Origin: Dysgonomonas sp. ZJ279
GTDB taxonomy: Bacteria; Bacteroidota; Bacteroidia; Bacteroidales; Dysgonomonadaceae
Assembly: GCF_011039205.1 (NCBI RefSeq)
Contig: NZ_JAAKEL010000004.1
Location: 62,001-126,000 of the forward strand
DNA: 64,000 nt
Direction of reading: 5' to 3'
Positions 3,464-27,231 of the stretch are shown piece by piece. A program made the translations under genes and the position numbers. The notes beneath the pieces were generated by a model. That model worked only from the letters and a program-made list of their open reading frames with translations. It searched no databases and was not told the origin of the DNA. Positions within the stretch are counted from its first letter, which is position 1; every line of letters starts with the position of its first letter.

Positions 3464-4195
3464 ATGAAAATTCCATCTAAATTATTTATAGGAATACTTA
3501 TCACAACTTTACTTAGTTCTTGTTCGTCCAAGAAGGTCGTCTATTTTCAGGATATTGATAAGATTGATATGAAAAATCTTACTGCTTATCATAATTATGA
3601 GCCTAAAATAAAAAAAGATGATATGATTGGTATCATTGTTTCAGCTCCGGACAAAGAGGTTGTTGCGCCTTATAACAATGATCCAATGGTCTACATGGTT
3701 GATATCGATGGTTATATAGCTTTTCCTGTATTAGGGAAAATTAAAGTTGAAGGTCTTACTTTGCGAGAACTGTCCAATTGGCTTACTGACACGATATCCA
3801 AAGATGTGAAGAACCCTATTGTTAATGCATCTTTCATGAACTATAAAGTAACAATATTGGGAGAAGTGCGTACGCCGGGAACTTATGTTATGCCAAGCGA
3901 AAAAACAACGATCCTACAGGCTTTGGGTATGGCCGGAGACCTCACTCTGGGGGGAAAACGTGACGATGTATTACTAATTCGCGAAATAGATGGTAATTAC
4001 AAGCATATAAGAATTGACCTTAGGAAATCTGATATTTTATCTTCTCCATATTTTCACTTATGTCAGAACGACGTTATTTATGTGGCTCCAACCTCATCCC
4101 GTACATTTTCGGGATCGAGTCAATCTACCATCATTCCATTAGTTGCCTCTTCTTTAGGATTGGTGATATCAATGGCAGTTTTGATTTTCAATTAA
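3464..4195 (+). CDS. Wza-like polysaccharide export lipoprotein
   Basis: This is an outer-membrane polysaccharide secretin of the Wza/BexD family. The start MKIPSKLFIGILITTLLSSC is a lipoprotein signal peptide ending in an LSSC lipobox. A polysaccharide-export domain follows (about residues 45-125, KDDMIGIIVSAP through DGYIAFPVLGKIKVEGLTLREL). Next comes a SLBB-type segment with VTILGEVRTPGTYVMPSEKTTILQALGMAGDLT. The C-terminus has a hydrophobic stretch (IIPLVASSLGLVISMAVLIF) that may be the amphipathic pore helix. It should form the exit pore working with the Wzc-like protein encoded next. At 243 residues it is shorter than E. coli Wza, which is usual in Bacteroidetes. Confidence 0.93.
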   Translation: MKIPSKLFIGILITTLLSSCSSKKVVYFQDIDKIDMKNLTAYHNYEPKIKKDDMIGIIVSAPDKEVVAPYNNDPMVYMVDIDGYIAFPVLGKIKVEGLTLRELSNWLTDTISKDVKNPIVNASFMNYKVTILGEVRTPGTYVMPSEKTTILQALGMAGDLTLGGKRDDVLLIREIDGNYKHIRIDLRKSDILSSPYFHLCQNDVIYVAPTSSRTFSGSSQSTIIPLVASSLGLVISMAVLIFN

Positions 4196-4250: not shown

Positions 4251-6665
4251 ATGACTGAAAGAGAATTTTTGAACGATAAGGAACGAGCAATCAAAGTAGA
4301 TTATCGTAAAATAAGCACTATTTTATGGAACATGAAGTATATATTACTCATGTCTATAATATTATGTCTGACAGGGGCTTATTTTTATATTCGCTACACT
4401 ACACCGGTCTATAAGAAGAATATAACTGTAGTTCTCAAGAATCAACAAACTCAGTATTCCGATAATTATCAGCTAATATCTAATACTTTGGGTATAGGGA
4501 ATAAGACTAGCCCCGATAATCAGATATTTATATTGAAATCGGCAACATTGATGAGCCGTGTTGTTGAGCTGGGTAATTTTAATGTTAGGTATTTCAGCAA
4601 AGGTCGTTTTATTGATAAAGAGCAATATACAGACTCTCCTGTTAAGTTTTCGTTTAAACCCAAAGCCAATTATGAGAAGGTTGACATTAATCTGGAAATA
4701 ACATTTTCGACAGGGAAAGAAATATTTATAGACTCTTTGATAGTAAATAACGAACCAGTATCATTACCTGCCCGAAAAATTAATTTCGGACAAATCGTTA
4801 ACACACCTGTTGGTAGTTTCAATCTAACTGCACAAGAAAATATAGATGTTTCCAAACTAATAGGCGAGATGCGTATTACTCGCTCGAATGTAGAAAATGC
4901 TGCGAGAGCATTGACAGGAGCTTTGGAAATAACCTCTTCGGCCCAACAGCCGGATGCTTTAATTATCTCACTAAGAGAAAAGCATCCCAAACGAATAGAG
5001 GATATACTGAATATGCTAATAGACGAATATAATATTCTGACTAAGGAAAACGATAGTCAAAGTATTCTCAGTACGATATCATTCCTCGATGAACGCATCA
5101 TGGGACTGGAGGATGAACTGGAAGAAGTGGAAGGATCGTTTACCAAATATCAAACAGCAAATGAGTTGGTTGATCTTGGTTCGCAGTCTCAGATTGCAAT
5201 GAACTCTGAACAAGGATATAAAGAACGCTCGAATGAACTCAGATTACAACTTAATCTATTGGCTAATATTAAAAAATCTTTTGAGAGTAATGTTCATGAG
5301 CTTATTCCAGCCAATATAGGTATTACTGATGGTACTCTAAACATGTCTATCTCACAATATAATCAATACATTATTGATCGGAACAGGATGTTAGCAGGAT
5401 CTAGTGAGAATAATCCTAAGGTTCAAATAGTAAACGATTTGATTGCTACTTTGAGGAAGAATATTAAGCAGTCAATAGATAATTTAGAGGCTGGTTACAA
5501 ACTCCAGTTACAATCTACAACCAGACAACAAAATTTAAATCAACGCGAATTGATCGCAATGCCTTCAAAGCAACTGGCCCTAACGCGAATGTCACGTTTA
5601 CAGCAAGTAAAGGAGCCGCTCTATACTCTCTTACAGCAAAAAAGGGAAGAGGCATTACTCATGTTATCATCATTGTCTAATCAAGCTTATGTTGTAGATA
5701 AAGCCTTTGGGTCAGACTTCCCAATTTATCCAAAAGGGGGGGATATATATATGCTTGCATTGATTGTATCAATTTTTGTGCCTGTGTTCATTGTGTTGAT
5801 TATGAATATATTTCGTGATAAAATTATTTTTGAAAAAGATATTACAGATCGAACAGACATTCTGTTATTAGGAGCTATTCCTTCGGCATTGAAGAACAGA
5901 AAGTCGCCGATGAAAGCCCATATAATAACGGCTACAGGTCGTGATCCCCTTACCGAGAGTTTCCGCATGCTGCGAACCAAATTAGAGAACTTTACTATCA
6001 ATAAGAAAAAACAAGGAGGGTTAATTCTTCAGATTTCTTCTTCGGGACCGTGGGAGGGGAAAAGCTTTGTTTCTATTAATATGTCTTTATCCTTAGCATA
6101 TTTAGGAAAAAAGGTTCTATTGATTGGAGCAGATCTACATAAGCCGGCACTTAGTAAATATCTGGGGATAGATAGTAAAGAGAAAGGTTTGTCTACGTAT
6201 TTGGCAGGTATGGTGGACGACATACATCAGGTCATAATTCCTCATGAAAGTACCCCAAATTTAGAGATTATCCCGGCGGGTCCGATACCACTAAATCCGA
6301 GTGAATTGCTCTCTCTTCCATTATTAGAGAAAACGTTGGACGAGTTGCGCAATGAGTATGACTATATTATAATTGATTCTGCTCCATTTCTAGTTGTTTC
6401 TAGCGGATTCATTATCAGTAAATATGCTGATTGCACTTTGTACATCGTAAGATCCGACTACACCAAATTTTCGGCTATAGATGCTCTGAACAGTATAGTT
6501 AAGGAGGGTAGTTTGCAATCAGTAATGCTTTTGTTGAATGCAGTCAGTTTTAATAAAAAATCAATTTATGGTGTTAGTCGTTCCGGGCAGGCTTATGGTT
6601 ATGGATACGGCTATGGCTATGTTGAACATAATAAAAAGATTAAAAATAAAAATAACTATAATTAA
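4251..6665 (+). CDS. Wzc-like chain-length regulator and tyrosine-kinase-type ATPase
   Basis: This is a fused Wzz/Wzc protein of the inner membrane that controls polymerisation and export. A first membrane helix lies at about residues 28-50, a large periplasmic domain with coiled-coil character fills 50-495, and a second helix (MLALIVSIFVPVFIVLIMNIF) is near 500-520. The cytoplasmic BY-kinase domain follows. Its Walker A reads SSGPWEGKS (about 597-605), with Trp where Gly is usual. Walker A-prime reads LIGADLHKP and Walker B reads YIIIDSAPF. The tail carries a YGYGYGYGYV tyrosine cluster, the normal site of autophosphorylation, encoded by tandem tatggn-like hexamers. Kinase activity is likely but not certain given the altered motifs. 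Confidence 0.92.
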   Translation: MTEREFLNDKERAIKVDYRKISTILWNMKYILLMSIILCLTGAYFYIRYTTPVYKKNITVVLKNQQTQYSDNYQLISNTLGIGNKTSPDNQIFILKSATLMSRVVELGNFNVRYFSKGRFIDKEQYTDSPVKFSFKPKANYEKVDINLEITFSTGKEIFIDSLIVNNEPVSLPARKINFGQIVNTPVGSFNLTAQENIDVSKLIGEMRITRSNVENAARALTGALEITSSAQQPDALIISLREKHPKRIEDILNMLIDEYNILTKENDSQSILSTISFLDERIMGLEDELEEVEGSFTKYQTANELVDLGSQSQIAMNSEQGYKERSNELRLQLNLLANIKKSFESNVHELIPANIGITDGTLNMSISQYNQYIIDRNRMLAGSSENNPKVQIVNDLIATLRKNIKQSIDNLEAGYKLQLQSTTRQQNLNQRELIAMPSKQLALTRMSRLQQVKEPLYTLLQQKREEALLMLSSLSNQAYVVDKAFGSDFPIYPKGGDIYMLALIVSIFVPVFIVLIMNIFRDKIIFEKDITDRTDILLLGAIPSALKNRKSPMKAHIITATGRDPLTESFRMLRTKLENFTINKKKQGGLILQISSSGPWEGKSFVSINMSLSLAYLGKKVLLIGADLHKPALSKYLGIDSKEKGLSTYLAGMVDDIHQVIIPHESTPNLEIIPAGPIPLNPSELLSLPLLEKTLDELRNEYDYIIIDSAPFLVVSSGFIISKYADCTLYIVRSDYTKFSAIDALNSIVKEGSLQSVMLLLNAVSFNKKSIYGVSRSGQAYGYGYGYGYVEHNKKIKNKNNYN

Positions 6666-6717: not shown

Positions 6718-6894
6718 ATGAAAAGCGAAGAAAAAGCAATGAAAAAAGAGTATGTATCCCCTCTTATCGAGATTATTGAGGTGGATGTGGAAGAAGGCTT
6801 TGCCATGTCTGTGGAAATAAAAGGAGCTGCAAATGATTTTACTACAAACAGCTTCGGTAACGGAGACGGAGGTAGTACAATGGGAGATTTTTAA
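6718..6894 (+). CDS. Small peptide, candidate RiPP-type precursor with YxxP leader
   Basis: A 58-residue open frame begins at the ATG at 6718; a second in-frame ATG (MKKEYVSP) lies at 6739. The longer frame running back to 6538 only overlaps the Wzc gene and I disregard it. Residues 8-30 read as a conserved-looking leader: EYVSPLIEIIEVDVEEGFAMS, with YxxP followed by alternating acidic and hydrophobic residues. The C-terminal half is rich in Gly, Asn, Asp, Ser and Thr and ends GDGGSTMGDF. No signal peptide is present. Related small Bacteroidetes proteins with YxxP and GFAxS are familiar to me as uncharacterised. The PqqD, kinase, exporter and peptidase genes downstream make a modified peptide precursor plausible, but this is inference. 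Confidence 0.7.
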   Translation: MKSEEKAMKKEYVSPLIEIIEVDVEEGFAMSVEIKGAANDFTTNSFGNGDGGSTMGDF

Positions 6895-6925
6895 CTAAAG
6901 TATGACGACTAAAAAAGAAAAAACG

Positions 6926-7912
6926 ATGAAGAAAATAATATTTGCTACATTAACGTTAGCAATTGGCTTATGGTCATGTTCGCAAAGTGAAGAAAATGAG
7001 AAAACTGACAATACTGACAATACTTCGCATGGTTATGTAAATGTAACAATAGGTACCGAATCGGGAAGTCTCAAAAGTATAGTGGCTCCCGGAGGAGCAA
7101 CTAGTTGGGATCTTGTTGACCAAGTAAAGATTCTAGATGTTGATGGTGTAGAGCAACTGTTTTCTTATGCAGCTGAAACACCTAAAAGTTCAGCTCAGTT
7201 TTCTGGAAGACTGAAATCCGGACAGGGTAAGCAGGTTTATAGAGCGTACCATGTTCCTAAGAAATCTAAGGTTACATTGAAGAATGGTCATATTCTAGTT
7301 GTAGGAAGAGAAAATATTGAAATAACCGAAGATAAAGCGACTAACAATTCAGCTCTATTTGGTATGTATTGTCCAATGGTGGCCACTCCTTTTGAATTTG
7401 ATGCTGAAAACACAAAAGATTCTAAATTAGCTCAATTTTATCATTTGGGTACAATGATTGAAGGTCGAGTTAGTCTGAGAACTCCTCAAGATTCAAAACA
7501 TTTGGACAAAATGTTTGACAAGATAGTGTATGAGGTTAAAGCAATCGGTTCATATCCCTTCTATACCGAAATAGAATTAGACTTAAATAAACTAACGACT
7601 TCTTCGTTGGTTGAAGATTTGAATGATTGCATAATACCTAACAAAGCTGTGAAAACAGATTTAATGTCAACGACTATAAATATGCAAGCACGTTCTATAA
7701 GAAGTCTTATGGAAGAGTATAAATTATTGGGTTCTTATGCTATTCCAATATTTGCTCTTCCGACAGAAGAGGGCTTTAACTATACAGCAACCATCTGTTT
7801 CTATAATCAAGGGAAAGAACAATTGAAACTACAAGGTAGTGGTGTAGCAACGAGATTGAATCCGGCAGGATTGAATATTTTGAATTTCGATTATAAGAAA
7901 ATTGTCGAATAA
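6926..7912 (+). CDS. Fimbrillin-like (Mfa-like) lipoprotein
   Basis: This is a secreted lipoprotein. From the ATG at 6926 it starts MKKIIFATLTLAIGLWSCS, a type II signal peptide with Cys at position 18. An in-frame ATG at 6902 would add eight polar residues and spoil the signal, so I prefer 6926. The mature part begins with a low-complexity acidic linker (EENEKTDNTDNT). Then comes a beta-rich domain with YVNVTIG, a SWDLVDQVKI-like segment and a late YTATICFYNQG strand. That layout resembles the FimA/Mfa-like fimbrillin family, but the match is by feel only. It lies 31 bp after the small peptide gene and is followed by a strong terminator, so peptide and lipoprotein are probably co-expressed. 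Confidence 0.7.
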   Translation: MKKIIFATLTLAIGLWSCSQSEENEKTDNTDNTSHGYVNVTIGTESGSLKSIVAPGGATSWDLVDQVKILDVDGVEQLFSYAAETPKSSAQFSGRLKSGQGKQVYRAYHVPKKSKVTLKNGHILVVGRENIEITEDKATNNSALFGMYCPMVATPFEFDAENTKDSKLAQFYHLGTMIEGRVSLRTPQDSKHLDKMFDKIVYEVKAIGSYPFYTEIELDLNKLTTSSLVEDLNDCIIPNKAVKTDLMSTTINMQARSIRSLMEEYKLLGSYAIPIFALPTEEGFNYTATICFYNQGKEQLKLQGSGVATRLNPAGLNILNFDYKKIVE

Positions 7913-7933
7913 AAATTACCTTAATTAATACTG

Positions 7934-7980
7934 TAAAGGATTATTATTGCTTCTGTAGAATAATAATCCTTTATATTTTT
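7934..7980 (+). terminator. Intrinsic terminator inside the locus
   Basis: A perfect 15-bp stem (taaaggattattatt, 7934-7948, pairing with 7959-7973) with a 10-nt loop is followed by a T-rich tail running to 7982. It sits between the fimbrillin-like gene and the PqqD-like gene. Only about 15 bp separate the tail from the next start codon, leaving no room for a separate promoter, so downstream genes must depend on read-through or on a promoter inside the preceding gene. Confidence 0.85.
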
Positions 7981-7996
7981 TTCTAAATATATCAAT

Positions 7997-8269
7997 ATGA
8001 GAATTCGAAAAGGTTTTAAAATACAGTCTGTAGGAGGAGAGAATATTATACTGTTGCAGGGTACATACGGTGTTGATACCACCAAAATAGTATCGTTCAA
8101 CGATACATCTCTTTTGTTATGGAATATCTATGAAGATAAGGAGTTTACAGCAGAAGATATAGCCGCCTCTCTTGTGGAGGAGTTTGGTATAGAAAGAGAG
8201 CTGGCCACTAAGGATGCTATAGCTTGGATTGATGTATTAGTTCAAAACAGACTGATCGAGCAGCAATGA
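7997..8269 (+). CDS. PqqD-like RiPP recognition protein
   Basis: A 90-residue protein of the PqqD family, the small winged-helix proteins that bind leader peptides of ribosomal peptides and deliver them to modifying enzymes. The pattern fits: an N-terminal beta segment (FKIQSVGGENIILLQG), the FNDTSLLLWNIYEDKEFTAEDIAASLVEEFGIE core, and a C-terminal helix plus strand (AIAWIDVLVQNRLIE). It is free-standing rather than fused to an enzyme. The next gene starts on its stop codon with a 4-bp overlap. I infer that its client is the YxxP peptide encoded 1.1 kb upstream. Free-standing PqqD-like proteins beside HprK-related kinases are also known in exopolysaccharide loci, where the client is unknown. 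Confidence 0.85.
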   Translation: MRIRKGFKIQSVGGENIILLQGTYGVDTTKIVSFNDTSLLLWNIYEDKEFTAEDIAASLVEEFGIERELATKDAIAWIDVLVQNRLIEQQ

Positions 8270-9393
8270 TAAATTCAGTAAATATGTTTTTTTCACTGCT
8301 TCGGCTGAGTCTGAATGCTGATAAAAACAAAATAGATCGTTGCTCATCAACATTTGTTGGTGCAGAAAGTAACGATTGGGAGCAATTGTTTGAACTTTCT
8401 GTAAGACAAGGAGTGCTATTATTGTGTTATGGTGGTTTACAGTACTTACCTAAAGAGTCACAACCGCCTCGTAAATTGAAGTTGCGTTGGTGTGTAAATG
8501 TAGTAAAAGGCTGTGAACGATACGACCATTATAAATGTATTATTGCGAAGTTATCAAATTTACTATCAGAAAATAATATAGCTCTTCTTATAATTAAGGG
8601 GGTTACCATATCTGAATTATATCCTGTTCCATATTTTCGAGAGAGTGGCGATATAGATATTTATTTGTTCAAGAAAGCCGAACAAGCTAATGATCTGATC
8701 TCATCTCTCGGAATAAAAAAAGAGGAGGGAATAGAGAAACATTCCATTTTTATAATAGATGGGATACCCATAGAAAATCATTATACATTTTTTGATACTG
8801 CTTTACAATTTCAAAGAGAAAGCCAATTGTATCAGAAAATGGAGATTATGCTTAACGGCATGTTCTCTCAAAATACTTGCCCTACTATAAAGAGGGATAA
8901 TATTTATCAGCTTCCGCCACAGGCGGCGGCTCTTTACCTAATAGGTCATACGTTCAGACATTTTTGTTGTCTGGATGTAAACATTAGACAGATGTGTGAC
9001 TGGACAATGTTTTTCAGTAAAAACGAAGAATATATTGACAGTGAGTTGTTAGCCTCTCAAATAGACGAATTGGGGTTAAAAGAATTTGTATGCCATATCA
9101 ACTCTTTCTGTTCTAACTATCTTGGATTCAATCCCTATTTCATAATTCCACAAAAAAGAGAAGCAGCAACAGAAGAATTTATCTTGAAAACAATAATGCG
9201 GTACAGAGTCAATCCTAAAATACATATCCCTGTTTTTGGTGTATTGCACTATCTTTTCCGCAGAAATAATATATATAGAAAATATTTGGGTAAGGTAGAT
9301 ATTACAGAATTTTTACTCCCTGAGATCAAAAGCTATTTTGCCTATCTGTTAAAACATAGATGGCGTTCTACAAATAAAACATCGAAGATCTAA
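8266..9393 (+). CDS. Nucleotidyltransferase-fold family protein (NTP_transf_5 type)
   Basis: A 375-residue protein with the landmark of the uncharacterised nucleotidyltransferase family often found beside PqqD and HprK-like genes. LLIIKGVTISELYPVPYFRESGDIDIYLF (about residues 103-131) holds the KG, the R and the GDIDI metal-binding aspartates. It would attach a nucleotide or phosphate group to a partner, and its true substrate is not known for the family. No signal peptide or membrane segment is evident. It is translationally coupled to the PqqD-like gene by a 4-bp overlap. Homologues occur in some lasso-peptide and exopolysaccharide clusters; a role in tailoring the small peptide is inference. 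Confidence 0.85.
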   Translation: MINSVNMFFSLLRLSLNADKNKIDRCSSTFVGAESNDWEQLFELSVRQGVLLLCYGGLQYLPKESQPPRKLKLRWCVNVVKGCERYDHYKCIIAKLSNLLSENNIALLIIKGVTISELYPVPYFRESGDIDIYLFKKAEQANDLISSLGIKKEEGIEKHSIFIIDGIPIENHYTFFDTALQFQRESQLYQKMEIMLNGMFSQNTCPTIKRDNIYQLPPQAAALYLIGHTFRHFCCLDVNIRQMCDWTMFFSKNEEYIDSELLASQIDELGLKEFVCHINSFCSNYLGFNPYFIIPQKREAATEEFILKTIMRYRVNPKIHIPVFGVLHYLFRRNNIYRKYLGKVDITEFLLPEIKSYFAYLLKHRWRSTNKTSKI

Positions 9394-9416
9394 TTCAGTT
9401 CGAGCCTATTTTTGCC

Positions 9417-11096
9417 ATGAATATAAATTTATACATTAAATTGCTCCCTCATCAATTCCGAAAGAGAGCGATTGGAATAGTCATCATTGGGATACTGAAT
9501 AGATTGTTAGATCTAGTTGGCTTAGCTTCGTTGTTGCCAATCATTATCGTAATTATGAATCCATCGAGTATCAAAGGCGGGGATTCGTTTATGGCTCGGC
9601 TATTCCAACTCATAGGATTGGATTCTCTAGCTCAATTCGGTATCATGTTGGGGGTAGTTGCTTTGGTATTATTACCATTCAAAAGTATAATTACAATTTG
9701 GCTCGGAAATATTCAGAATAAATATTATCTGGAAATATATAAACATTACTCCCGAAGACTTTATAATTATTATCATAACAAGGGACTCTTATTTATACGC
9801 CAGACGTATTCATCACAGCTGGCATTTCACATCAATGGTGCTTGTTATGGATTTGCGACAAACATTATCAAAACCATTTTGGATTTGATGTCTAACTTCG
9901 TAGTAATGTTATTATTGATCGGCTTTTTAGTCTGGCTTGCTCCTATGACATCTTTGATGTTACTGGCTGCTCTGGTGCCTATTTCTTTGATATATTTGGT
10001 AATTGTCAGAAATAAACTTAAAAAAATTGGGTCCGAAGCATACGAAGCTCGTCGCAAACAAGCTCAGATAGTTCAGGAGAGCCTAAAGGGATATGTAACA
10101 TTAAAAGTTAATGATTCATTTGAGAGAACAAATGAAGACTTTAATAAGGGACTTGATACGATATTTAAAGCAGACATTAAAAATATTGTTTATAAGCAAA
10201 TTCCATCAGTGATTTTTCAGATATGCACAGTTATTGCACTGATTATTTTGCTTGTTGAAGGAACGACTAACAACACTTCTGTCAATTCTTTCATAATCTT
10301 TGGATTTACAGCTATCCGAGTAATGCCATCATTACTAGCTATGGTAAACGGTTGGCACACTCTTCAGAATAACCAATACATAATTGATGTGATTAAAGGG
10401 ATAGAAGAAGATGATAATAAGAACAATAATGAAGAGATTTCCCAACCTATAAATTTAAGTCAACAAATAGAACTAAGGGATATAACTTTTGGTTTCGAGA
10501 TCGATACACCTGTCTTTTCAAATTATTCTTTAAAGATACATAAGGGTGAAACTATAGGTTTTAGAGGAGTCTCCGGAGCTGGGAAGAGTACCCTATTCAA
10601 TCTGCTATTGGGATTCTATGTTCCCCAGAAAGGTGGTGTATATATTGACGGAGTTAAGTTATCCTCTCAAAACAGAAAAAGTTGGCATAAGGAGGTCGGT
10701 TATGTAGAGCAGGATGTCTTTATAAAAAATGATTCTCTAACTAAAAATATTGCGATGTCAACGGCTGAACCGGATAACGATAAGATATTGGAGATATTTG
10801 ACCAAGTGGGACTTAAGCCATGGTTTGAGAGTCTTAAAGATGGCTTAGATACGATTATAGGAGAGGGAGGAGCAACCGTTAGCGGAGGTGAAAAACAGCG
10901 GATTGGGATAGCAAGAGCATTGTATAAAAATCCGAAAATTCTCTTTGTTGATGAAGCCACATCTGCTCTGGATACAAAAAGAGAGGAAGATATTGTTTCT
11001 TTACTACACTCTTTAACTTCTGATAATTTCACTCTTCTGATCATTTCGCATCGGGAGAGTACACTCCAATTCTGCAATCGCATAGTAGACATATAA
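9417..11096 (+). CDS. ABC exporter half-transporter (TMD-NBD fusion)
   Basis: A 559-residue ABC transporter with an N-terminal membrane domain of about six helices (roughly residues 20-310) and a C-terminal ATPase. The ATPase shows Walker A (GVSGAGKST), the signature VSGGEKQRIGIARAL, Walker B (ILFVDEATSALD) and the switch His in LLIISHRES. It resembles MsbA and lasso-peptide D-type exporters and should work as a homodimer. There is no N-terminal C39 peptidase domain, so any precursor cleavage would need another enzyme, for which the signal-peptidase-like protein downstream is the nearest candidate. It starts 23 bp after the nucleotidyltransferase gene. Export of a lipid-linked glycan cannot be excluded. 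Confidence 0.93.
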   Translation: MNINLYIKLLPHQFRKRAIGIVIIGILNRLLDLVGLASLLPIIIVIMNPSSIKGGDSFMARLFQLIGLDSLAQFGIMLGVVALVLLPFKSIITIWLGNIQNKYYLEIYKHYSRRLYNYYHNKGLLFIRQTYSSQLAFHINGACYGFATNIIKTILDLMSNFVVMLLLIGFLVWLAPMTSLMLLAALVPISLIYLVIVRNKLKKIGSEAYEARRKQAQIVQESLKGYVTLKVNDSFERTNEDFNKGLDTIFKADIKNIVYKQIPSVIFQICTVIALIILLVEGTTNNTSVNSFIIFGFTAIRVMPSLLAMVNGWHTLQNNQYIIDVIKGIEEDDNKNNNEEISQPINLSQQIELRDITFGFEIDTPVFSNYSLKIHKGETIGFRGVSGAGKSTLFNLLLGFYVPQKGGVYIDGVKLSSQNRKSWHKEVGYVEQDVFIKNDSLTKNIAMSTAEPDNDKILEIFDQVGLKPWFESLKDGLDTIIGEGGATVSGGEKQRIGIARALYKNPKILFVDEATSALDTKREEDIVSLLHSLTSDNFTLLIISHRESTLQFCNRIVDI

Positions 11097-11151
11097 TTAT
11101 TTCACTATAACAACTGAGTGAGAAAATTTTGGTTTTGACAGTTTTAAAATA

Positions 11152-12018
11152 ATGAGAAAAATATATTCGATAGCCGGCTTGAAAGTGGAGCTGAGTGGAG
11201 AAAGTACTATGCAACAATTGACTAGATTACCCGAGTTTGATGTATTCGAAATCGATGATCAAAGTGAAGTTAATATTGATATTTTCATCCGCATGGACGA
11301 AAATGTGGATGCTGCTTACTTTACAGAAGTTTGCCATGTTCATCGTTTTAACGTATTGGATATAGAGCACTCTTTTTCGACTTGTAAAGAAGGGTATCTC
11401 TATGAAATGCACCGGCAGGATGGTAGTAAGATTGTAAGCGTTATCTATAATCCGCATAGCAATGATGTTTTAATGTCTTCTTGCAACTGTTCAATATCTA
11501 TCAAATTTGCCATGTGGATTGCGTACTCTTTACCGGCAGTGAAAGAAAAAGTGCTTCCAATACATGCATCAACGATCGTCAAAGATTCGGAGGCCGTTCT
11601 ATTCCTTGGTGAGTCAGGAACAGGTAAAAGTACACATACAAGATTATGGTTGCAATATATTGAAAATACTTACTTACTGAATGACGATTCACCTCTGTTA
11701 CGTATCGAAGGCGACAAAATATTTGTTTGTGGGTCTCCATGGAGCGGTAAAACCCACTGTTACCGGCAAGAAATAGTTCCATTAAAAGCAATGGTCAGAC
11801 TAAGTCAATATCCGGAGAATAAAATGAGTTGCTCAAGTAAGCTAAATTCTATTGGGGCTATATATCCATCTTTTCCTCCTTTTTTAGCATACGATGGGTC
11901 ATTCTCCGAGAAAATAATTTATTGCTTAGATAAAATTCTTAAAGATACACCTGTATATGAACTAAAATGTCGTCCGGACAGGCAAGCGGCTGAGGTCGCA
12001 TATACTACAATATATTGA
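11152..12018 (+). CDS. HPr-kinase-like protein (HprK-related, PqqD-associated)
   Basis: The C-terminal half resembles the ATP-binding domain of HPr kinase. LPIHASTIV is followed by the P-loop FLGESGTGKSTHTRLW (about residues 150-164), then LLNDDSPLLRI with the acidic pair, then GSPWSGKTHC. The N-terminal 120 residues are a beta-rich region without a clear match. No PTS genes are near, so sugar-PTS control is unlikely. Relatives include the paeninodin-type kinase that phosphorylates the C-terminal Ser of a lasso precursor, and HprK-related kinases of exopolysaccharide loci. A peptide kinase role acting on the Ser/Thr-containing tail of the small peptide is a reasonable inference but not shown. 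Confidence 0.85.
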   Translation: MRKIYSIAGLKVELSGESTMQQLTRLPEFDVFEIDDQSEVNIDIFIRMDENVDAAYFTEVCHVHRFNVLDIEHSFSTCKEGYLYEMHRQDGSKIVSVIYNPHSNDVLMSSCNCSISIKFAMWIAYSLPAVKEKVLPIHASTIVKDSEAVLFLGESGTGKSTHTRLWLQYIENTYLLNDDSPLLRIEGDKIFVCGSPWSGKTHCYRQEIVPLKAMVRLSQYPENKMSCSSKLNSIGAIYPSFPPFLAYDGSFSEKIIYCLDKILKDTPVYELKCRPDRQAAEVAYTTIY

Positions 12019-12023
12019 TTTAT

Positions 12024-12491
12024 ATGGCTGTGAAAGAAATATCCAATAATCTGTTTTTTACTAATGTTAGAAATATTATTAATTCGGGCAATTCGGTAGA
12101 ACTGAAAATTAAGGGGACAAGTATGTATCCCACTTTGTTAAATGGTGAACATAAAGTGGTACTAACATCTTATCAAAAACAATATCTGAGGATTGGTATT
12201 ATACTTCTCTTTGTGTATAAGGAAAAATACATATTGCATCGTCTGGTGTCTATCAATGAAAATCAGCTAATACTTCAAGGAGATAATCAGCCATATATTA
12301 GAGAATATATTGAGGAGAAAGATATAGTTGGTATGGTAGAATACATTATTAGCCCTACAGGTAAAGTTACAGACTGTAAAAAACGTCGTTTTTTTGTTCA
12401 AAATAGATTGTGGCGACCAATATATCAATATCATTTATTCTTCGTTAGAAAAATGAAAGGTTTTTTCATTAAGACTTTTGCATATACATAA
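12024..12491 (+). CDS. S24/S26 signal-peptidase-like protein (Ser-His type)
   Basis: A 155-residue protein with signal-peptidase boxes. VELKIKGTSMYPTL contains the nucleophile Ser33, and YILHRLVSINENQLILQGDNQ contains His72 and the GDN motif. A histidine in this position is typical of the archaeal, ER and SipW-like class, which uses Ser-His rather than Ser-Lys. It lacks a clear N-terminal membrane anchor, though a hydrophobic stretch near residues 56-66 (IGIILLFVY) is present. A TTG in frame at 12015 overlaps the kinase stop, but the ATG at 12024 is the simpler start. It could cleave the leader of the small peptide, filling the role of the missing lasso-type protease. Confidence 0.82.
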   Translation: MAVKEISNNLFFTNVRNIINSGNSVELKIKGTSMYPTLLNGEHKVVLTSYQKQYLRIGIILLFVYKEKYILHRLVSINENQLILQGDNQPYIREYIEEKDIVGMVEYIISPTGKVTDCKKRRFFVQNRLWRPIYQYHLFFVRKMKGFFIKTFAYT

Positions 12492-15991: not shown

Positions 15992-17137
15992 ATGAAAATT
16001 ATTCTTTCACCACATGGAGGAAGTGGAAATCACGGATGCGAAGCGATAGTCAGATCGACAGCAAAAATATTGAAAAATATCGATTTTGAGCTATTCTCGG
16101 CATCTCCTGAAGAAGACGCAAAATACGGATTGACTAAATGCTGCAAATTGTCGGCTGCCCAAAAGCCAATTAACCGTTTTTCCATGCGATACCTCCTGGC
16201 TCGGATAAGCGGTAGTGTGGAGAAATTTGACCGACTAGCTTTCGATCCTATCCTCAAAGCAGCAAAGCAGAGTGATTTGATGATGAGTATAGGAGGTGAT
16301 AATTATTGCTATGGAATCAACAATCACATTCTGTTAGTTAATAGAGCAGTCAGAGAATTAGGAAAAAAAACCGTGCTATGGGGTTGTTCAATAGAAGAGG
16401 AGGCAATAAACAATGATATAGTTTTTGATGATCTTGCGGCTTTCGATCTGATAATTGCCCGCGAAAGTATAACTTATAATTCGCTAAAGAAAAAAGGTTT
16501 AGCTAAAGTATCATTGTTCCCCGATCCGGCATTCCAACTCAATCGGATAGATCTCCCTTTGCCTGAAGGCTTTAAAGACGGGAATACGGTAGGGATCAAC
16601 ATAAGTCCCATGATTATCAGTTATGAAACAAACAAAGATTCTACGCTGAACAATTATATCGGGTTGATAGAACATATAATGGCTACATCGGATATGAATA
16701 TTGCATTAATTCCACATGTAGTATGGACACATAATGATGACAGAAAGCCTCTTTTACAATTATACAATCGTTTTGCTCATACAGGAAGGATCGTTATGAT
16801 AGAAGATACCGCAGCATCGGAACTCAAGGGGTATATAGCCCGCTGTCGATTTTTTATAGCAGCACGTACTCATGCCAGTATTGCTGCATATTCAGAGTGT
16901 GTACCGACTTTGGTTGTAGGCTATTCGGTGAAAGCGAGGGGAATAGCACGTGATATTTTCGGAACGGAGGATAATTATGTAGTACCTGTACAGTCGTTAA
17001 CAAAGGATGACCAGCTAGTTAAAGCTTTTAAATATATATATGAACACGAAGCTGATATCAGAAATCATTATGCTTTGGTTATGGGGCAATATAAAGCAAA
17101 AGCTGCAGAGGCCAGAAAAGAAATTACAAAAATATGA
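15992..17137 (+). CDS. Polysaccharide pyruvyltransferase family protein
   Basis: A 381-residue protein starting MKIILSPHGGSGNHGCEAIVRST, the typical G-rich N-terminus of the polysaccharide pyruvyltransferase family (CsaB/WcaK type). Other family features are SIGGDNYCYG, KTVLWGCSIEE, a LFPDPAFQL segment and a late RTHASIAAYSECVPTLVVGYSVKARGIARD with the conserved His. Members transfer a pyruvyl ketal from phosphoenolpyruvate to a sugar, giving the polymer a negative charge, but many are assigned by family only. It follows the REP-like gap, so it may have its own promoter, and it overlaps the next gene by 4 bp. Confidence 0.88.
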   Translation: MKIILSPHGGSGNHGCEAIVRSTAKILKNIDFELFSASPEEDAKYGLTKCCKLSAAQKPINRFSMRYLLARISGSVEKFDRLAFDPILKAAKQSDLMMSIGGDNYCYGINNHILLVNRAVRELGKKTVLWGCSIEEEAINNDIVFDDLAAFDLIIARESITYNSLKKKGLAKVSLFPDPAFQLNRIDLPLPEGFKDGNTVGINISPMIISYETNKDSTLNNYIGLIEHIMATSDMNIALIPHVVWTHNDDRKPLLQLYNRFAHTGRIVMIEDTAASELKGYIARCRFFIAARTHASIAAYSECVPTLVVGYSVKARGIARDIFGTEDNYVVPVQSLTKDDQLVKAFKYIYEHEADIRNHYALVMGQYKAKAAEARKEITKI

Positions 17138-18219
17138 TAGTTATTATATCGCTGTTTGCTATACTTCTTATTTTTGTTGGGTTCGACTTTATCTTATTCT
17201 TTTGTGAGTGGCAAGCCAGAATTCATATAGGCAGATGGGATGATCGGCTCAAGTGGCAAAAGGCAATCGAATCGAGAGCCCGTAAATGGTTAGATAGGCC
17301 TCCAACTGTAAAACTAACAGACAATAATTATTGGGTACTTTATGATGTGTTGCGTGGCAGATATCGTAACCGAACAATACAAAGCTGGCAAGCAGCAGGT
17401 CTGTTGATGGCTTTCGGCAAAACTGAGGCTGTCCGATATAGTAACGGAAAAATAGATACTACAACCGGCAATTGGAAAAAAGATCCCACACATATCGATG
17501 AAGCTTTGTTGGCATATATTCTAAAAAAAAATAAAGCATTAACTCCAATAGCCGAGAAAACTATTATTTCTCTCCTAACAAAATTGAAGGGAGACCAAGA
17601 GACTATTCCCTATCGGGCTACTATTCCAGATGTGAGGTTTATAGATACAATAGGCATGGTTACTCCCTTTCTTGTCCTCTGTGGAGAAGGTGAGCTTGCC
17701 ATGAAACAAATAGAAGAATATGACAAAGCGAAATTGGCAGATTCTTCCATTCCCTCACATGCTTATGATATAGTTCGAGATGTTCCTTTAGGAATATATG
17801 ATTGGGCACGAGGTATCGGATGGTACATACTGGGGCTTGTGGATTCTAATACGGGCGGATCGCTTGATATTCGCATAATTTCGTTAGCAGAAGAATTATT
17901 ATCTTATCAAAAAGAGGGTGGTGGCTTCGGTGCTATGTTTTTCAATAATGAGGCTACATGCGAGTCGTCCGGTACAGCTTTGATAGGTTTATTGATGGTA
18001 AATGCATATCGGATAAATTCTGACACACGATTTTTGGATGCAGCCTTTCGGATAGAAAAGCAGTTGATGCGACAGACTCGTAGAACTGGTGCTATAGATT
18101 TCTGTCAGGGCGATACAAAAGGTATCGGTTATTATTCTACTTCTTTTTCAGTTATGCCATTCGCACAGGGTATTGCATTGAAGTTGTCAAAAGATCTGAA
18201 TGAATATGCGAACGGATAA
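17134..18219 (+). CDS. Membrane-anchored GH88/GH105-like (alpha/alpha)6 protein
   Basis: A 361-residue protein. Residues 1-25 are a hydrophobic N-terminal segment (IISLFAILLIFVGFDFILFF) without a cleavage site, probably a membrane anchor. The rest has the six-hairpin pattern of unsaturated glucuronyl/rhamnogalacturonyl hydrolases: NYWVLYDVLRGRYRN, DTIGMVTPFLVLCGE, SHAYDIVRDVPLGIYDWARGIGWYILGLVD and AMFFNNEATCESSGTALIGLLM. The DWARGIGWY motif is the clearest link to GH105. Such enzymes remove unsaturated uronic acids left by lyases. In a synthesis operon it may instead trim or recycle the polymer, or be a non-catalytic relative. It overlaps both neighbours. Confidence 0.75.
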   Translation: MIVIISLFAILLIFVGFDFILFFCEWQARIHIGRWDDRLKWQKAIESRARKWLDRPPTVKLTDNNYWVLYDVLRGRYRNRTIQSWQAAGLLMAFGKTEAVRYSNGKIDTTTGNWKKDPTHIDEALLAYILKKNKALTPIAEKTIISLLTKLKGDQETIPYRATIPDVRFIDTIGMVTPFLVLCGEGELAMKQIEEYDKAKLADSSIPSHAYDIVRDVPLGIYDWARGIGWYILGLVDSNTGGSLDIRIISLAEELLSYQKEGGGFGAMFFNNEATCESSGTALIGLLMVNAYRINSDTRFLDAAFRIEKQLMRQTRRTGAIDFCQGDTKGIGYYSTSFSVMPFAQGIALKLSKDLNEYANG

Positions 18220-25617: not shown

Positions 25618-27231
25618 TTACACTAATATCCCAAGCAAAGCACGAGCTTCTTTCAAATTCATCTTCTCGCCTTTCATTTCTATCAATCGCAGATTTTTTC
25701 GTTCTAATATTTTTTTTCCTACAAACATATCTTCGATGACATCATTAGTATAAAGGTTAGTCCAGTTTCCTATTTGCAAAAGCTGTTCTATATCCTCGGA
25801 TGTCGTATTGTCTATATTTAACCTAAGTGTTGTCAGTTTGGATAATCCATTCAATATTTGTATGCTCTTTTCGTCCAATAGAGAAAGGTCGAACGAGAAA
25901 TCTTTCAGCTTTACAAGCTTCTCTATCTCAAAATGAAAAGAAGTGAAAAGATTGTCCATCATGCCTAATATGGATATATCTTCCATTTTTGATATAGTTT
26001 CAGGAAAAGAATTTAATTTGCAACTTGAGATATTTAGGTTGACCAATTGGGGTTGAATACAATGGATATTAGGTTGAAAATTTCTTTCTAAATTAAGTTT
26101 TTTTAGTTTAGGAAATGATTTATCTATCGATAATTTACTATTGGTTTTCTGAGAGGAGATGTCCAGTTCTGTTAATTGAGGTAGGCTATATAATACATCG
26201 GGAACTATTTCAAAATGGCATTCATCAAATTTCAACTTTTCAGGGATTGTAATAACGAAAAACTATCAGGCAAATCAGATATCTGATTATAGCCTGATTC
26301 TATTTCTTCCAGACTTGTAAGTTGAGATAATATTTCGGGAAAAGAAGTGAATTCACAATTATCTATGCTAATTTTTTTTAATTTGTTTAGCTTCACTATA
26401 TCATCCGAAATAGTATCTATGTAGTTTCCTGAAAGATCTAATACAGTGATTTCATCCAGTTCCCATACTTTATCGGGGATATTCTCCAAATCCATGTATG
26501 ATAAATCCAGTTTCTTTATTTTACTTTCCTGTAACTTGGAAAACCGTTTTTCCAGTGAGCTTTGTATTGATTTATCGCTGATAATGGATTCGCCCTTTAG
26601 AATTGCTTTCAGTATATTGCTTTCCTTAAGTACCTCCTCCCATTTATCATAATACTTGCTTTGAAATATATCTATTAGTTCGTATTCTGTATTGTCATTA
26701 TTTCGTCCAATTATATAACCTTTTTTTATATTTTTAGTTCTTAATGCATGATCAGATGATATAATAACCTCAGCCGCCAGAGAACCTTCAACTGTGGTTG
26801 TTCCATGGTTGTATACCCCAATGAATGTCTGTGCAACTGTTACGTCTTTTTCGAAAGTAGTTTCTCCTCCTCCCATCCAAATATTCCGGGCTATAACATC
26901 TCCTTGAAATGTAGTTACAGGACCAAAATCTTTTTCCATTTGTACTAATGCATTTTCGACAGATACATTTTTCCTGAAAACAAAAAAGGGATTGTTCTTG
27001 CTCTCTTTTTCCAGATCATCAAGAAAAAGGTTCTTTACAGCAACTTCATTTTCCATGATAAATATGGTACCATTATATGAATTTCTATAATAATCAGGAA
27101 TATATATATATATATATATATATATTGAATTCACCTAATTTTTCGACAGGTATTTCGTATTGTATAAAGTCTGCTAATGTTATAGTATTATTTAAAGGGA
27201 ATTTCGACCCATCATCTTTGATTGATTGCAT
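25618..27231 (-). pseudogene. Leucine-rich-repeat protein gene, frame broken at two sites
   Basis: One gene is spread over three frames on the minus strand. The first part starts at the ATG at 27231 (MQSIKDDGSKFPLNNT) and runs 36 residues into an (AT)13 tract, where the frame stops at 27094. The second part continues in another frame through the tract into MENEVAVKNLFLDDLEKE and the first repeats (LDLSYMDLENIPDKVWEL), stopping at 26232. The third part (KFDECHFEIVPDVLYSLPQLTELDIS, to 25618) continues the repeats. One extra A in the run at 26237-26240 would join parts two and three as SLKKLKFDEC, the exact repeat consensus. Repeat length is about 23 residues. No signal peptide is seen. An internal ATG at 27056 could still start part two. 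Confidence 0.75.
27100..27125. repeat. (AT)13 dinucleotide microsatellite inside a coding region
   Basis: Twenty-six bases of uninterrupted AT repeat lie within the 5' part of the leucine-rich-repeat gene, read as alternating Ile-Tyr. The upstream frame from 27231 and the downstream frame differ by one base. Gaining one AT unit or losing two would join them. This is the kind of tract that changes length by replication slippage. Confidence 0.9.

Follow-up and report, generated by a model that had tools for sequence, protein, structure and literature searches.

The locus and its genes

Seven genes at positions 6718 to 12491 of the stretch analysed here (the window: 64,000 nucleotides of contig NZ_JAAKEL010000004.1 of Dysgonomonas sp. 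ZJ279, whose genome is 4.1 Mb in size) encode a small peptide, a lipoprotein and a cassette of five further proteins (Table 1). The latter are a discrete recognition element (RRE) of the kind that binds the leaders of ribosomally synthesised and post-translationally modified peptides (RiPPs), a nucleotidyltransferase-fold enzyme acting on nucleoside triphosphates (NTP enzyme), an ATP-binding cassette (ABC) exporter, an HprK-like kinase and an S26 peptidase. A preliminary description of this DNA had proposed a seven-gene run on one strand inside a capsule locus, and gene calls and domain matches bear this out: all seven genes lie on the forward strand at the expected positions, preceded by genes for Wza-like (3464) and Wzc-like (4251) proteins and followed by a glycosyltransferase gene (12500). 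The RRE and NTP enzyme genes overlap by 4 bp, as do the kinase and peptidase genes, and the remaining intergenic gaps measure 7 to 84 bp.

The comparative set consisted of 77 stretches around matches to PF14907, the family of the NTP enzyme (one being the window's own), plus loci L003 and L004, of which L003 was left out as a copy of L058. Genes were labelled by home-made profiles; that for HprK was rebuilt with a P-loop filter after its fourth round had drawn in unrelated genes. A like gene set occurs in L004, L053, L056 and L058. The cassettes of L053 and L056 have an additional membrane-protein-like gene between NTP enzyme and exporter (7888–9282 in L053, with a counterpart in L056), coding for proteins of 464 and 454 aa that look membrane-like by eye. 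A contig scan found kinase relatives at only two loci, in Dysgonomonas sp. Marseille-P4677 and Bacteroides sp. 519.

Table 1. Features of the peptide locus and its upstream context (window coordinates)
Feature	Position	Strand	Remarks
Precursor peptide	6718..6894	+	58 aa, or 51 aa from ATG 6739; kept in 4 like-arranged loci
YVSP (YxxP motif), predicted RRE-binding	6751..6762	+	Read off the sequence; motif tested in LPP (PMC13381572)
GFAMS, predicted leader/core junction (GF/AMS) and predicted phospho-acceptor Ser31	6796..6810	+	Ser position; cleavage and phosphorylation by analogy with LPP
Fimbrillin-like lipoprotein partner	6902..7912	+	Likely start ATG 6926; lipobox LWSC; NF038041 E=3e-5, below cut-off
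Discrete RRE, PqqD family	7997..8269	+	PF05402 E=7.8e-11
NTP_transf_5 nucleotidyltransferase-fold enzyme, LppN/PsmN-like	8266..9393	+	PF14907 E=2.3e-40
ABC exporter, LppD-like	9417..11096	+	ABC_tran PF00005 1.8e-32, ABC_membrane 9.9e-7
HprK-like kinase, LppK/PadeK-like	11152..12018	+	Weak PEPCK_ATP in Pfam, below cut-off
SipW-like S26 peptidase, LppS-like	12015..12491	+	ATG at 12024; PF00717 24.3 bits vs cut-off 23.3
Wza-like export protein (context)	3464..4195	+	PF02563 1.5e-12
Wzc-like co-polymerase (context; directly upstream of peptide)	4251..6665	+	AAA_31 2.1e-13, Wzz 6.1e-6

Conserved residues of the cassette enzymes

The preliminary description had called the system uncharacterised, which does not stand, as the gene set matches the linear polyphosphorylated peptides (LPP), which are RiPPs of Bacillota. 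The lpp cluster of Paenibacillus alginolyticus codes for the RRE LppB, the HprK-like kinase LppK, the SipW-like peptidase LppS, the NTP enzyme LppN and the exporter LppD, and binding, phosphorylation and cleavage have been tested experimentally (Popov et al. 2026, PMC13381572, cited throughout from the accessible part of its text). LppK phosphorylates Ser3 of the core, and LppS requires LppB (PMC13381572).

The residues expected of such enzymes are present. In the kinase, H138, K159, D178 and D179 are invariant in 17 of 17 sequences and correspond to the His-Lys-Asp-Asp motif of the lasso-peptide kinases (PMC9266682, likewise cited from the accessible part); a profile of 17 relatives matches HprK (1jb1) in the PDB with E=2.4e-5. 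In the peptidase, S36 and H75 are invariant in all 14 sequences compared, and their spacing of 39 residues equals that of S29 and H68 in LppS; D90, a putative counterpart of the catalytic Asp, is likewise invariant in the 14. The peptidase matches TIGR02228 (archaeal-type signal peptidase, 2.9e-10) below the cut-off, and the window protein has no N-terminal hydrophobic stretch. For the exporter, the Pfam and NCBIfam matches include no peptidase domain.

A profile alignment to LppB (9x8z) places N35 and D73 of the RRE opposite Asn33 and Asp70, which in LppB hold the Pro and Tyr of the precursor (PMC13381572). Each of the two is kept in 21 of 23 RREs from S26-type loci, against 7 (Asn) and 9 (Asp) of 13 from lasso-type loci. 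The single window RRE found no match in the PDB with phmmer, whereas the RRE profile did, LppB scoring below the lasso RREs TfuB1, TbiB1 and PbaB1. The NTP enzyme has six residues invariant in 26 of 26 sequences (K111, G112, D129, D131, H172 and H228). Its model (predicted local distance difference test, pLDDT, 88) lies nearest to CCA-adding enzymes and ANT(2''), with FKRP lower and none at E<=0.001. PsmN of pseudomycoidin, a related enzyme, has been tied to hexoses on phospho-Ser (PMC9266682).

Separation from lasso-peptide clusters

Among 43 PqqD loci, the S26 peptidase is present and lasso genes are absent in 22, while 13 carry a lasso cyclase and/or B2 protease but no S26. Eight loci contain neither, and no locus combines the two. 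With our home-made profiles no cyclase or B2 gene was detected at the window locus or related loci, nor within 7.5 kb of the RRE at any of the 22 S26-type loci. In trees of the RREs and of the kinases, a branch with 97–100% support splits S26-type from lasso-type sequences; those of neither type are divided by it, 4 and 3 among the RREs and 1 and 1 among the kinases. Because no locus holds both and the trees separate the two types, the S26 peptidase seems to belong to a line of its own, in which it stands in for the lasso protease.

These data bear on the idea that the locus is a degenerate lasso cluster which has lost cyclase and B2 protease. Phosphorylated lasso clusters do share PqqD, HprK-like, NTP_transf_5 and exporter genes with it, and lasso loci with WxxP peptides are present in the same order. 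The cassette nevertheless has a peptidase of its own, its peptide is under purifying selection (see below) and it occurs in many families. We rejected this idea, the least probable of those considered, as the trees of RRE and kinase keep the two types apart; this supports the view of the preliminary description that the product should not be a lasso.

The precursor peptide

The window peptide has the sequence MKSEEKAMKKEYVSPLIEIIEVDVEEGFAMSVEIKGAANDFTTNSFGNGDGGSTMGDF. No credible family was found for it in Pfam or NCBIfam, the single NCBIfam match reaching 12.7 of 350 bits. In 5 of 10 pairs, those not saturated, the ratio of non-synonymous to synonymous substitutions (dN/dS) is 0.07 to 0.23 (0.12 against L058, 0.07 against L053), so that the peptide is under purifying selection.

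With the LPP consensus YxxPxVLxHQxIxFETxxS the window peptide shares the YxxP motif and a Ser soon after the leader. In a set of 60 peptides (20 of them query rows, several near-copies), YxxP is present in all, which is a selection effect, as the profile fixes Y and P. A Ser at 18 to 22 residues past the Tyr is found in 56 of the 60, while in five-residue steps Ser is encountered in 6 to 17 of 60 peptides in the leader (before position 16) and in 11/36 to 21/58 in the core (from position 22). Because the LPP core begins with AxS, we predict by analogy a cut near GF/AMS and a phosphate on Ser31. The peptide of L080 carries HQ at the position seen in LPP. An aromatic residue lies within the last three positions of 39 of the 60 peptides, often behind Asp, Glu or Gly (DW, EW, DF).

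Precursors in trans and co-occurrence with the kinase

PF14907 matches are present in 17 of 61 relatives and, within the order, in 125 of 393 genomes. In 10 of the 61 relatives the peptide was detected with a profile built from 7 peptides; nine of the 10 have PF14907 (p=1.2e-5), and the tenth (G025) has the kinase; with the five query sources removed, four of five peptide-positive relatives have PF14907 (p=0.006). Many of these peptide matches lie on contigs other than that of the cassette.

Larger profiles, one built from 20 peptides (A3) and the other from 17 kinases (A4), were applied to the 393 order genomes at cut-offs of E<=0.001 for the peptide and E<=1e-60 for the kinase, the kinase value being set after the order sample and left unchanged for the family. 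The peptide was found in 20 genomes and a strong kinase in 29, with 16 having both, 4 the peptide only, 13 the kinase only and 360 neither (p=2.5e-17; 10/4/13/360 and p=5e-11 without the six query-source genomes). This count omits three genomes with weak peptide matches, the inclusion of which gives 16/7/13/357 (p=1e-15). At the level of families (119 in the test), 9 of 12 with the peptide are among the 16 with the kinase (p=2e-7). In the window's own family, the same four classes comprise 26, 3, 6 and 66 of 101 genomes (p=3e-15); for the 64 of these not previously seen, to which profiles and cut-offs were applied as preset, they comprise 16, 3, 5 and 40 (p=3e-8). The 25 genomes of the window's genus have either both (7) or neither (18). 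Within a class sample of 237 genomes the peptide occurs in four, all with a kinase at E<=1e-60, and such a kinase occurs in five; G526 is the sole peptide-positive genome outside the order.

Most precursor genes are remote from the cassette. In the family, 45 of the 58 peptide places either lie on a different contig from the kinase or are separated from it by more than 10 kb. This is not merely a matter of fragmented assemblies, as all eight peptide places of the single-contig genomes G440 and G441 are far from the kinase. A genome may have up to ten peptide matches at E<=0.01 together with one cassette; the window's own genome has, at the cut-offs used, a single precursor, that in the locus. 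The coexistence, in Bacteroidales, of one cassette with peptide genes dispersed in trans appears to be new. Such scattered precursors would be missed by searches of the kind made for LPP, where 1–3 precursor open reading frames (ORFs) per cluster are described, with a search reach of up to 5 kb around the cluster (PMC13381572). The expectation that a YxxP peptide always accompanies the gene set holds in so far as the two co-occur across genomes, but not locally: a peptide is nearby at 10 of the 22 S26-type loci. Cassettes without a small peptide, which the preliminary description had named as evidence against its proposal, are thus found at the other 12, and in 7 of these the genome holds a peptide elsewhere.

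The co-occurrence is relevant to a further possibility, that the small ORF exists by chance or serves as a regulatory leader, the target of the enzymes being a polysaccharide-related protein. The position within a capsule operon behind Wzc would suit this, and LPP and paeninodin clusters are also often found in capsule loci (PMC13381572). We regard it as very improbable, as the peptide is conserved at the amino-acid level, the Ser keeps its position, and kinase and peptide co-occur even where the peptide is encoded elsewhere in the genome.

Pairing of peptides with lipoproteins

A lipoprotein gene directly follows most of the peptide genes. Lipoproteins were called by a home-made rule, and the next-gene steps used as null were drawn from the same stretches. 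The order search gave 61 peptide places, of which 43 were examined in the pairing set, 12 had been examined earlier and 6 were left out; two of the 43 (L199, L223) lack a usable ORF, leaving 41 peptides, four with E between 0.001 and 0.01. A lipoprotein gene is situated within 110 bp downstream of 25 of these 41, as compared to 12 of 208 other next-gene steps (p=5e-15). Of the 58 places of the family search, 20 were examined in a later set (one in G012, the other 19 in genomes new to the analysis), 11 earlier, and 27 were left out. In the later set a lipoprotein gene comes directly after each of the 20 peptides, whereas 12 of 112 ordinary next genes encode one (p=1e-15), the 20 pairs being partly dependent (the peptides of L232 and L236 and those of L233 and L240 are identical, others are near-copies).

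The partners are diverse. Mfa_like_1 fimbrillin domains occur in 5 of these 20, and FISUMP, laminin-G, FGE-sulfatase and other domains were also found; a mixed set of 44 partners additionally shows BspA-type leucine-rich repeats and C10 and M6 protease domains. A fimbrillin-type N-terminal sequence pattern is present in 30 of 46 partners but in only 11 of 121 other lipoproteins, a contrast that is understated, as several of the "control" matches (e.g. L056, L156, L243, L149) are partners themselves. The window's own partner fails to match this pattern. Its model (pLDDT 71, predicted template modelling score 0.67) has 25 PDB matches at E<=0.001, all to FimA/Mfa-type, adhesin-like or related Bacteroidales proteins, with template modelling (TM) scores of 0.28–0.55, and a similarity to type V fimbrillins is predicted for it. 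We infer, without precedent, that the lipoprotein would be the functional partner of the peptide.

Two other explanations of the pairing were weighed. The exported peptide might be a bacteriocin-like or signalling RiPP, with the neighbouring lipoprotein as immunity protein or receptor. Lantibiotic systems with lipoproteins as immunity proteins are known, RiPP machinery and an exporter are present, and in the later set one lipoprotein stands directly behind each peptide. The partners are, however, large and of many domain types (FISUMP, laminin-G, BspA-type repeats, C10 and M6 proteases), they frequently have the fimbrillin-like N-terminus, some peptides trail secreted proteins instead, and the location behind Wzc recurs, so that we consider this explanation unlikely. 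Less probable still is that the cassette modifies the lipoprotein itself, the small peptide being a mere adaptor or chaperone. The tight pairing of the two genes would fit, and the kinase might target another protein; however, it is the peptide that contains every site at which RRE binding, phosphorylation and cleavage are expected, the lipoproteins have a Sec-type signal while the peptide has none, and the LPP and lasso kinases that were tested target the precursor (PMC13381572, PMC9266682).

Some peptides have other neighbours. In G024, peptides at 8055–8201 of L147 and at ~7990–8163 (minus strand) of L148 trail large secreted proteins, C10-like and M6-like by our judgement. Peptides of a related MKKxYxxP type (L209–L211, L217, L218 and L222; genomes G326, G146 and G419) lie 19–34 bp downstream of secreted proteins, several of which end in SLWGDDE or NLWGDDED. 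G326 has no PF14907 or kinase match at 89% completeness.

Link to capsule loci

Part of the system recurs in exopolysaccharide loci, as in Bacillota, while most precursors are away from the cassette. The gene order Wzc-peptide-lipoprotein is found in four lineages, one of them outside the order: in the window's genus, in G291 (RRE and kinase, then Wza-Wzc-peptide-lipoprotein), in G310 (Wza-Wzc-peptide-lipoprotein) and in G526. The last, the genome outside the order, has two cassette loci, both by Wzc, one with the order Wzc-peptide-lipoprotein-RRE-kinase, as well as four dispersed peptides, each followed by a lipoprotein. The peptide may decorate or regulate the capsule, as had been supposed previously; the genomic data speak more strongly for its pairing with a surface lipoprotein.

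Two further features of the window may be mentioned. A GH88-like protein (17134–18219; E=1.2e-5, below the cut-off) is encoded amid capsule biosynthesis genes, and two adjacent ORFs that code for leucine-rich repeats (25618–27134, minus strand; 205 and 300 aa) are possibly a single interrupted gene.

Proposed pathway

We favour the interpretation, to which we assign a probability of about three in four, that a Bacteroidota form of the LPP pathway is encoded here, with the peptide paired to a surface lipoprotein. Four kinds of observation carry it: gene content, catalytic and binding residues, co-occurrence, and pairing. Binding, phosphorylation, cleavage and export of the peptide we infer by analogy with the tested LPP and lasso enzymes. 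The RRE would hold the YxxP leader, the kinase would add one or more phosphates to the Ser of GFAMS, and the S26 peptidase, having no N-terminal membrane anchor, would cleave near GF/AMS in the cytoplasm. The phosphate may in turn receive a sugar, nucleotide or sugar-phosphate from the NTP enzyme. The core of ~30 residues would leave the cell through the ABC protein, and outside it may work with the adjoining fimbrillin-like lipoprotein. In relatives the cassette, usually one and sometimes two per genome, would serve several dispersed peptide/lipoprotein pairs. Because gene set and conserved residues match LPP, the earlier proposal of a PqqD-bound peptide acted on by kinase, leader peptidase and exporter was, judged by this analogy, largely correct.

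Several observations weigh against this interpretation. As to the enzymes, the His-Asp spacing of the peptidase is 15 residues as compared to 25 in LppS, so that D90 is only a putative counterpart of the Asp; no activity of LppN was seen according to the accessible part of the Bacillota study (PMC13381572); and in the cassette of a close relative in the window's genus (G010; L058, 9300–11293) the genes for NTP enzyme and kinase have no ABC exporter gene between them. As to the precursors, the Tyr-to-Ser distance is 19 residues in 37 of 60 peptides and 20 in 17, whereas the LPP consensus has 18, and the window leader is without HQxIxFET, both HQ and FET being absent. Co-occurrence is incomplete: at five of the 22 S26-type loci (L075, L079, L116, L117, L120) no peptide was found nearby or in the genome; 13 of the 29 order genomes with a strong kinase have no match to the peptide profile, which in two of them (G226, G061) missed a YxxP peptide in the cassette; 4 of 20 peptide-positive order genomes have no kinase at E<=1e-60 (G200, G272 and G326 also none at 1e-10); and in the family the kinase is missing from 3 of 29 peptide-positive genomes. 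As to the pairing, 16 of the 41 order peptides have no downstream lipoprotein, nine having a secreted neighbour upstream only and seven none, and in L061 the cassette peptide is followed by the kinase, while two more peptides in that genome trail large secreted proteases.

More tentatively, and at less than even odds, the LPP-like pathway may be a genome-wide trans system of Bacteroidota. A single RRE-kinase-nucleotidyltransferase-S26-ABC cassette would mature many YxxP peptides. Each of these, (poly)phosphorylated and perhaps glycosylated, would be dedicated to one particular fimbrillin-like surface lipoprotein or secreted protease and would act on the cell surface as a removable subunit, ligand or anchor; the pair behind Wzc would be set aside for the capsule machinery. 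LPP is reported without a biological role in the accessible part of its description (PMC13381572). If true, the trans system would provide a first one, namely a phosphorylated peptide on the cell surface. The lipoprotein gene directly beside most precursors is a strong hint of function.

Comparison with known systems

HprK-PqqD pairs of the HPr-rel-A type are linked to exosortase and polysaccharide loci, and the window likewise has HprK-like and PqqD-like proteins. This system was rejected on scores (TIGR04352, 17.8 of 200 bits; TIGR04353, 13.9 of 35 bits). With type V fimbrillins (FimA/Mfa) the window partner shares the predicted fold class and a lipoprotein signal; the TM scores are low, however, and no family cut-off is reached. 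We know of no co-encoded RiPP-like peptide that is part of described type V pili.

The phosphorylated lasso peptides paeninodin and pseudomycoidin have in common with the window an HprK-like His-Lys-Asp-Asp kinase, a nucleotidyltransferase-type tailoring enzyme, an RRE and an exporter (PMC9266682). They differ in that their phospho-Ser is C-terminal, whereas the candidate one here lies close to where the core begins, apart from the cyclase and B2 genes that were not found at the window locus.

Among the matches listed in the open-licence literature, LPP is known from PMC13381572 only, and we met neither LPP from Bacteroidota nor precursors paired with lipoproteins; a study that mined Bacteroidales for RiPPs names PqqD, in its accessible part, in the reference list only (PMC10352776). 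LPP are termed restricted to Bacillota in the discussion of their description (PMC13381572), and our results place the same machinery in a second phylum. LPP and the window have in common a discrete RRE, an HprK-like kinase, a SipW-like serine peptidase, an NTP transferase and an (MsbA-like) ABC exporter, together with a YxxP precursor, a Ser just past the leader, the capsule-locus setting and the absence of a cyclase. Besides the phylum, they differ in the leader (EGFAxS here, FETxxS in LPP), in the Ser, which is one or two residues later in most peptides, in the lipoprotein gene adjoining the precursor and in the many precursors that relatives hold in trans. As a pathway known here from its genes, the cassette is grouped with LPP because of gene content, conserved residues and separation from lasso clusters; its precursor appears to differ from known LPP, and the lipoprotein partner gene and the precursors encoded in trans appear to be new.

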